DNA from: Dictyostelium firmibasis
Lineage: Eukaryota > Evosea > Eumycetozoa > Dictyosteliales > Dictyosteliaceae
Direction: 5' to 3'
DNA: 60,758 nt
Assembly: GCA_036169595.1 (NCBI GenBank)
Contig: JAVFKY010000008.1
Location: 35,001-95,758, forward strand
In this document: positions 13,989 through 16,784 of the stretch, in pieces
How positions within the stretch are numbered: the stretch's first letter is position 1
Layout of the letters: the number at the start of each line of letters is the position of its first letter
Program-made: the position numbers and the translations under genes
The notes under the pieces: generated by a model
Told to the model about the DNA's origin: nothing
What the model saw: only the letters and a program-made list of their open reading frames with translations
Database searches by the model: none

Positions 13989-16784
13989 ATGGATTTTAAA
14001 TCATTTTTATTTAATAACCATTATAACAGAGATGAGAGTAATGGATTTGGTGATTTAAATCATTTAGACAATAGTAATGAAATTGGTTATGGCTTAGGTA
14101 GATACCAATTCGGTGGAGTTGACAACAATATCAATAATAATAATAAAAATAAAAACAACATCAACAATAATAATAATAATAATAATAATAATAATAATAA
14201 TAATAATAATAATAATAATAATAATAATAATAATAATAATAATAATAATAATAGTAATAATAATAATAATAATAATAATAATAATAAAAATAAAAACGAT
14301 ACCCTTAAAATTGGTGATGGAAGTGATGATAACGATAGTGGCTATGGCGATAACAGTAGCGATAACATAAGTAATTCTGAAGAAACTAGCGACTTTTGTA
14401 ATTCAGAAGAAGAAGGAGATACAAGTAGTGATAAAGAAAACAACAATAGTAACGGTCAATTCTCTTTAACAAACAATTGGTTTGTAAATACATTTTTCAA
14501 AAGTAACGAAACAACAAAAACTTTAAACTCGAATAATAATAGTAATAAAAATAAAAATAAAAATGAAAATTATAAAAATAAAAAAGATAATAATCAAAAC
14601 AAATTGAATGAAACGATAAAACCAAATACATTGGATCTATTTGGAATGAATGAATTAGGATTCTTAAAGGCAGAGATGTTAACAACATCATCAAAAGTGG
14701 AAAGAATGTTAATATCACATTCACCACTTGGTTTAATTATTAGAGATGGTACCAACCAAATACCAATTGTTGATACCTATACAACTAGTTCACCATTTTC
14801 ATCGGGATCGTCATCCCTTTCAACATCGACCGATACCTCTATCACATTGTCATCAGATGACGATACCAATGATTTGGATAAAATCAATAAATCAATAACC
14901 TCACAATTAATGAGAGAAGAGATTGCCTTAAATAAAATTAGTGGTGATCAATTAATTATAAAATGTATAGACTGTTCAAATATAATAACAGATATTGAGC
15001 AAGTTATATTTTTAGATGTTTGTATTATTATTATTTATTATTATTATTATTATTATTATTATTATTATTATTATTATTATTATTATTATTATTATTATTA
15101 TTATTATTATTATTATTATTATTATTATTATTATTATTATTATTATTATTATTATTATTATTATTATTATTATTATTATTATTATTATTATTTTTGATAT
15201 CTAATTTTAATTGATTTATAGTGTACACATATATATTGTAAAAAATGTTTATATAGCTTTATAAAGAAAAGAATCGATGAGAAAAGAGTTTCAAAGATAA
15301 AATGCAAATCGTGTAAGACATCATTATCTGTGTACGATATTAAGCAAGTATTAACAGATGAAGAGTACTCAATATATGATGACGCTTCATTGGATCAGGC
15401 AATCTCTAGAAATAAAGACTCATATATTCAATGTCCTTGTTGCACTTTGGTAATGGAAAAAGTTATAATACCCATAAGTAGTATAAACAATAGTAGAGGT
15501 GGTACATCAAGTGATACCAATATAGAATACGATGAAAATGGTAAACAACTAAGCAGTGAATCAATTGAACATAAAAGAAAATTTAGATTTAGATGTCCTC
15601 AGTGCTCTTGTGTATTTTGTACTGAATGTAAAATACAACCATATCATTTAGGCTACACATGCGCTCAATTTCAAATTTATAGTTCATCAAAACATTGTAG
15701 ATTTTGTAGAGTTGCAATTTTCCCAACTCCAATAATCTCACCAAGACTATCTTTAAAACCATCTACAACTACCACAACCACAACTAGAAATAATTTTAAT
15801 AGTAATTGTTGTTCAAATGAAGAATGTATGTTAAAGTCAATTAAATCATGTGAAAAAACATTAAGATGCGGTCATGAATGCCTTGGCATTCTAAACGAAA
15901 CTAAATGTTTACCATGTATTCATCCAGATTGTAATGACGATTATAATACTCCAACACCATTACCACCAAATGTTACGACCACTACTACCACAACTACAAC
16001 TACAACAACAACAGGAACAGGAACAACAATTATAATAAATACTCATAAAACAACACAAAAATCAAATGATTATTGTAACATATGTTGGACTGATTCATTG
16101 TCATCAGAGCCATGCATTCAATTAGAGTGTGGTCATATATTTCACAAAAAATGTTGTTCATCCATTTTGAAAAAGAGATGGACAAGTTCAAGAATTAGTT
16201 TTGGATTTATAAAATGCGCCCTATGTTCGCAAAACATGCAACATCCTTGTTTGGAGAAACATCTAAAACCAATCACTGAACTTTATGATTATATAAAAGT
16301 TAAAGCATTGAATAGACTATCACTATTTGGTGTGGAGAAAGGTGTAGATTTTGATGATCCTATCTCAAAGTGGTACAATGATAAAGAGGGTTATGTAATG
16401 GATAGATTCTCTTATTTCATGTGTTATAAATGTAAGAAACCCTATTTTGGTGGTGAAAAGGTTTGCGGAGTAGCTGACGAGAATAGAGTTGGTGAGCATA
16501 AACCAGAAGAGTTAGTTTGTGGTGGTTGTAGCTCAAGTGGTAATGAAAATTGTAAAATTCATGGAAAAGAGTTTATAGAGTACAAATGTAAATATTGTTG
16601 TCGTACTTCTGCTTTTTTCTGTTGGGGTAACTCTCATTTTTGTGTGGAATGTCATAAAAACGTAAATCATGTTGCCCAAGTTCCAAAAAATCAATTACCG
16701 CAATGTAAATGCGAAGGAGAAAAACATGTTTCTGGAGAAGAGTTTTGTTATGGTTGCACAATGTGCAAAATTATAAGTGAATAA
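13989..16784 (+). CDS. RBR/RING-Cys-relay hybrid E3 ligase
   Basis: Predicted E3 ubiquitin ligase of 863 residues from exons 13989..15017 and 15222..16784. Residues 1-310 are disordered (poly-Asn, acidic/Ser, Thr/Ser). RING1 follows from about 325 (CIDC...CTHIYCKKC...CKSC); the intron falls inside it and is phase 0. An IBR-like domain with a long insert comes next (CPCC...CPQCSCVFCTEC, H, GYTC). In place of the RBR catalytic domain there is a Cys-rich bridge (CRFC; CGHECLGILNETKCLPC) and then a C-terminal block resembling the end of human MYCBP2: RING (CNICWTDS...ECGHIFHKKCC...SFGFIKCALC), linker (ITELYDYIKVKALNRL), and tandem-cysteine domain (FMCYKCKKPYFGGEKVC, YKCKYCC, AFFCWG, GEEFCYGCTMC). 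Relay cysteines correspond to C758 and C810, 52 apart as in MYCBP2 C4520/C4572. It therefore probably transfers ubiquitin by thioester relay, perhaps to Ser/Thr. The donor GTTTGT is unusual. Domain identity is strong; substrate and pathway are unknown. Confidence 0.85.
14157..14287 (+). repeat. (AAT)n microsatellite coding poly-Asn
   Basis: Nearly perfect AAT tract in frame with the E3 gene, encoding about 43 Asn with single Ser and Lys interruptions in the disordered N-terminal arm. Confidence 0.95.
15029..15192. repeat. (ATT)n microsatellite filling an intron
   Basis: About 54 ATT units make up most of the 204-base intron (15018..15221) of the E3 gene. The tract is open in the upstream frame as poly-Tyr, so an unspliced transcript would be read through about 60 codons before a stop near 15197. 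Confidence 0.93.

Follow-up and report, generated by a model that had tools for sequence, protein, structure and literature searches.

The window, meaning the whole stretch of 60,758 nucleotides of Dictyostelium firmibasis DNA that was analysed, carries on its plus strand a gene whose predicted protein, a putative ubiquitin ligase, joins the front half of an RBR ubiquitin ligase to the RING-Cys-relay (RCR) module found at the C-terminus of MYCBP2. The features of this gene, followed by two related loci elsewhere in the same genome, are:

13989-16784, plus strand: gene, with its ATG at 13989 and a stop codon ending at 16784; predicted protein of 863 residues
13989..15017, plus strand: exon 1, translated as an Asn-rich low-complexity N-terminus and the initial part of RING1
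15018..15221, plus strand: GT-AG intron, the sole one predicted
15222..16784, plus strand: exon 2, an open frame translated as the remainder of RING1, the IBR, the bridge, the RCR RING and the tandem-Cys (TC) domain, with the stop codon
14958..15017, plus strand: RING1 of the RBR type, exon 1 part (profile of the genome's own RBRs; match to RBCK1/HOIL-1 RING1)
15222..15320, plus strand: RING1, exon 2 part (same RBR profile and RBCK1/HOIL-1 match)
15426..15668, plus strand: IBR, residues 412-492, whose two zinc sites are separated by a linker (own-genome RBR profile)
15696..15932, plus strand: bridge, residues 502-580, CRFC...EEC...CGHxCxG...CxxC...C, common to the PHR orthologue and the paralogue
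16074..16226, plus strand: RCR RING, residues 628-678 (alignment with MYCBP2 5o6c)
16227..16421, plus strand: linker between the RING and the TC domain (alignment)
16422..16781, plus strand: TC domain, residues 744-863 (MYCBP2 alignment)
16464..16466, plus strand: C758, equivalent to MYCBP2 C4520, first relay Cys (four-way alignment)
16509..16511, plus strand: E773, equivalent to MYCBP2 E4534 (four-way alignment)
16620..16622, plus strand: C810, equivalent to MYCBP2 C4572, second relay Cys (four-way alignment)
16653..16655, plus strand: H821, equivalent to MYCBP2 H4583, general base (four-way alignment)
L017:2818-5250, contig C1: diverged paralogue, an 811-residue frame with the order RING1-IBR-bridge-RING-TC in one open frame
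L019:807-9899, contig C2, minus strand: PHR/MYCBP2 orthologue, with PHR domain, B-box-like finger (by eye), bridge, RING and TC domain

The intron is almost pure (TAT)n (15023-15192, about 56 copies) and has a GC content of 2.9%, the exons having 24.6% and 31.7% and the 500-base flanks 15.2% and 19.6%; an (AAT)n tract at 14133-14293 lies inside exon 1. Exon 2 is open for 520 codons and holds the IBR, the bridge and the RCR module together, so that joining them needs no splicing. In addition, the paralogue reads through the site of the window gene's intron and has no intron between RING1 and TC. Unbroken frames, both in exon 2 and in the paralogue, thus speak against separate transcripts for the two halves. 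An artefact of the gene model or of the assembly could be argued from the one intron, which was called from sequence alone, and is extremely improbable given the single exon and a second locus, on another contig, with the same domain order.

Ten of the 36 long frames of the window were covered by a Pfam scan of the neighbouring genes. On the minus strand lie an NPC1-like protein at 7501-10803 (NPC1 middle luminal domain, 7.8e-44; sterol-sensing domain, 1.7e-48), a protein kinase-like frame at 37692-40805 (Pkinase, 6.1e-12) and a PHD-finger protein at 49856-52759 (Pfam). The plus strand carries an HCO3- transporter family protein (28313-30880; E 2e-119), an FAD-linked oxidase (36015-37427; Pfam), a DUF4419 protein (45092-46276; E 2.7e-97), a Mitofilin-like protein (54000-55883; E 2e-78) and, as the second ubiquitin-system gene of the window, a protein with a ubiquitin carboxyl-terminal hydrolase (UCH) domain (59500-60411; E 2.3e-10). 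The long frames at 33252-35684 (plus strand, 811 residues) and 46605-49835 (minus strand, 1077 residues) have no Pfam match at E 0.001.

The front half of the protein was analysed with profiles built from the RBRs of the same genome. There were 33 IBR matches listed in the genome, 25 of them with loci, from which 15 loci were picked; L043 was left out and 14 segments remained. The RING1-IBR profile comprises nine of these, including L029 with a shortened IBR. Excluded were L026, L030, L033 and L039, in which RING1 or IBR is incomplete, and L041, which looked irregular. A separate Rcat profile was made from eight own-genome segments. Residues 325-494 score as an RBR-type RING1-IBR with 39.4 bits (E 3.4e-11), and none of 500 shuffles that preserve Cys and His reaches the score of this segment. 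The first-pass annotation's observation of RING1 and IBR in RBR order is borne out by these values. RBCK1/HOIL-1 matches the RING1 at 1e-5, and RNF31 matches the IBR at 0.0099. It should be noted that the earlier claim of an N-terminal IBR is supported by the own-genome RBR profile, with which the IBR is significant, and not by the Pfam IBR model alone, which gives 0.023 on the window protein, below its cut-off. A PDB search with a two-sequence profile also finds the IBR part weakly (RNF31, 0.22).

With the nearest solved RBR ligases, namely RBCK1/HOIL-1, RNF216 and RNF31/HOIP, the window protein has in common a RING1 and an IBR in the expected sequence and with no ligand missing. It differs from them in having no detected Rcat, a long linker inside the IBR, and an Asp (D328) in RING1. 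This Asp stands third in the first knuckle of RING1, at a position that contacts the E2 in RING domains and that is Ile or Val in all nine RBRs of the profile and Ile in the paralogue. The RCR RING of the window protein keeps Ile at the corresponding position (C-N-I-C).

RING1-IBR might be catalytically idle baggage, the protein being an ordinary RCR ligase that retains a weakly constrained remnant of a zinc array at its N-terminus. The window protein and its paralogue are 35% identical in the RING1-IBR half, each scores under 8 of the 9 genuine RBRs when these are left out of the RBR profile, and D328 is unusual, all of which would fit this idea. Despite that divergence, both fused proteins keep 16 of 16 zinc ligands across RING1-IBR, including all 8 of RING1, and we therefore regard idle baggage as quite unlikely.

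No Rcat was detected behind the IBR. On the bridge, the eight-sequence Rcat profile scores -0.8 bits (E 95), and on the corresponding bridge of the paralogue -7.7 bits; its best score anywhere in the window protein, 5.0 bits (E 1.4), falls inside RING1. The initial statement that no RBR Rcat follows the IBR is thus upheld. The bridge has 20 columns that are invariant in all three sequences compared (window protein, paralogue and own-genome PHR orthologue), and human MYCBP2 presumably carries a matching one. Since it is present in the PHR orthologue, which bears PF08005, the bridge belongs to the PHR/MYCBP2 C-terminal module, which places the fusion joint after C490, the final ligand of the IBR, and before C502. 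A PDB profile search with the bridge gave as its best result one chance match (E 0.32). We also considered the bridge as a degenerate Rcat, since its KHCRFC start resembles the start of an Rcat; this was rejected because the own-genome PHR orthologue also has CRFC...CGHxC and the Rcat profile is silent.

Residues 621-859 match the RCR of human MYCBP2 with E 1.4e-69 (5o6c) and 6.5e-69 (6t7f), the match spanning positions 90-328 of a 332-residue query, and the two modules are 46.0% identical over 235 columns. Pfam zf-RING_2 matches the RCR RING at 6.7e-5, its 23.5 bits falling short of the cut-off, which is 27.3. The stretch between RING and TC corresponds to a linker that is helical in MYCBP2. 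An alignment of the window protein, the paralogue, the own-genome PHR orthologue and MYCBP2 places both relay Cys, the His and the Glu of MYCBP2 on conserved residues of the window protein, and the MYCBP2-type block of RING, linker and tandem-Cys domain described at first reading is therefore confirmed. When the MYCBP2 chain is anchored at C4520, positions 4572 and 4583 are a Cys and a His, respectively, in agreement with the numbers C4572 and H4583. The window protein has its two relay Cys 52 residues apart; this spacing is 49 for the paralogue and 53 for the PHR orthologue. The paralogue keeps C671, C720 and H731 at the relay positions, with D683 replacing Glu.

According to the available portions of the respective papers, a relay, a His base and a Cys-His-Glu triad are described for MYCBP2 (PMC9527308, PMC6769291), and C4520S MYCBP2 is called catalytically inactive (PMC12664034). 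The MYCBP2/PHR proteins (PAM, Highwire, RPM-1) have the same RING, TC domain, relay Cys pair, His and Glu as the window protein, whose bridge is as in the own-genome PHR orthologue. They are giant proteins, whereas the window protein has 863 residues, a changed Phe pocket and no PHR domain that we could find (residues 1-322 gave no Pfam match at E up to 1, the PHR domain included); it does not fit the definition of a PHR/MYCBP2 orthologue, and the genome has a separate one with PF08005. Three Phe positions form the Thr pocket of MYCBP2, a pocket that characterizes MYCBP2 and not the RCR class as a whole. At these positions the window protein has W811, F816 and V824, i.e. Phe at one of three, and the own-genome PHR orthologue has F, F and N. 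With one of the three Phe kept, the Thr preference of the window protein may differ.

A scan of the genome for the RCR module gave four matches from four candidates scored, such counts being lower bounds for large families. They are the window gene, the C1 paralogue (1.7e-53), the C2 PHR orthologue (4.1e-48) and a weak RING match (0.024). The paralogue also matches in RING1 (2.6e-7) and IBR (1.4e-12). It shares the domain order of the window protein and is 41.1% identical to it in the RCR, with Asp for the catalytic Glu; its N-terminus is C2-like (PF00168, E 0.0085, below cut-off). The PHR orthologue has PF08005 at E 5.5e-31 in a frame of at least 3031 residues. Where the window protein has RING1-IBR, this orthologue has a B-box-like region, recognized by eye and with no B-box listed there by Pfam; the RING1-IBR profile finds no signal upstream of its RING (-13.7 bits, residues 2619-2741). 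Searches for RCR relatives in viral contigs (two scans, with 2 and 93 pattern-matched stretches) and in the genome-contig collection (71 stretches) yielded none that was confirmed.

In the unrooted RCR quartet, the window protein and the paralogue are separated from the PHR orthologue and MYCBP2 with a bootstrap of 97%. The AU p values of the two rival topologies are 0.025 and 0.021 under LG+G4 and 0.002 and 0.043 under WAG+I+G4; under LG+C20+G4 support drops and both become 0.07, the replicates being too few for the AU test to be firm. In the RING1-IBR trees the two fused proteins are sisters with moderate support (FastTree 0.93; IQ-TREE SH-aLRT 86.1, UFBoot 80), the nearest ordinary RBR being L023 in one of the two trees and L034 in the other. 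Because the trees of both halves pair the window protein with the paralogue, the simplest reading is a single fusion that preceded the duplication into two copies.

The midpoint of the RCR quartet, obtained by arithmetic on branch lengths, separates the fused pair from the PHR pair; as the tree has no root, the fusion may be older or younger than the split of amoebae and animals. Such a midpoint is compatible with an old fused lineage and hence with a relic, in which the fusion is the ancestral state, the relay module arose from or replaced the RBR catalytic domain, and the PHR proteins later lost RING1-IBR. Nonetheless, the RCR profile is not similar to Rcat (hhalign probability 0.7%), the PHR orthologue is silent for RING1-IBR upstream of its RING, and the fusion was seen only in the D. 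firmibasis genome, the sole eukaryote searched, which makes a relic very unlikely. The first-pass annotation had linked the RBR and RCR classes through this protein, either as a fusion or as a relic. The former is supported by RING1-IBR without a detected Rcat, a full MYCBP2-type module, an exon shared by IBR and RCR and the same order in the paralogue; the latter gains no support, as the hhalign result and the assignment of the bridge to the PHR/MYCBP2 module both count against it.

Taken together, we favour, with a probability of about 0.72, a hybrid transthiolating E3 in which an RBR RING1-IBR is joined to the PHR/MYCBP2 C-terminal module, with the RCR standing at the place of Rcat and ubiquitin being relayed there. 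RING1-IBR would be followed, shortly after the last IBR ligand, by the zinc-rich bridge, the RING and the TC domain. By analogy with MYCBP2, E2~Ub would dock on the RCR RING and ubiquitin would pass to C758 and next to C810; its transfer to a hydroxyl (Ser/Thr) acceptor would use H821 as the base, together with E773. RING1-IBR would then be a regulatory, ubiquitin-sensing, or substrate- or partner-binding part and not the loading RING.

A different division of labour would have RING1 of the RBR part recruit E2~Ub and feed the RCR cysteines, leaving the RCR RING as a structural element or for a second E2. All 8 RING1 zinc ligands are present in both fused proteins, and the paralogue RING1 keeps its hydrophobic knuckle residue, Ile, and could thus bind an E2. 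However, with Asp in RING1 of the window protein where all nine profile RBRs have Ile or Val, and Ile in the RCR RING, RING1 is probably not the main loading site, and loading through it is unlikely. A doubtful extension of the hybrid E3 that we favour is a separate old class of RBR-RCR hybrids, whose RCR split from that of PHR proteins before the parting of amoebae and animals and whose RING1-IBR gates or feeds the cysteine relay; if true, RBR-type control would be coupled to ester-forming chemistry.

A small two-copy amoebal family of this kind would provide a second kind of RCR protein, and the hybrid would show that the relay module can be carried from one protein to another. It would also be a natural setting in which to ask whether RING1-IBR is able to operate together with a catalytic part that is not Rcat. 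RBR and RCR ligases are treated as separate mechanistic classes in the accessible text of a review, one table of which files MYCBP2 as RBR-like (PMC13008643), and MYCBP2 is named as the first or a notable RCR case in the excerpts of the literature consulted. Among the matches listed in our literature search (titles and abstract openings), no RBR-RCR hybrid is described, and no paper on RING-Cys-relay together with Dictyostelium was found in the literature collection searched. Eight RBR-type E3s are counted in D. discoideum, with no such fusion named in the part of the source at hand (PMC11354881); a database annotation of a D. discoideum orthologue may exist.

Finally, the contig of the window might be guessed to be the small telomeric contig that the paper on the D. 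firmibasis assembly describes (PMC11193728); the telomere pattern GGGGAGAGACA given there has 0 matches in the window, and the guess gains no support from it. The authors of that paper state that each of the 34 genes on one small contig has a homologue in D. discoideum and/or D. purpureum (PMC11193728).
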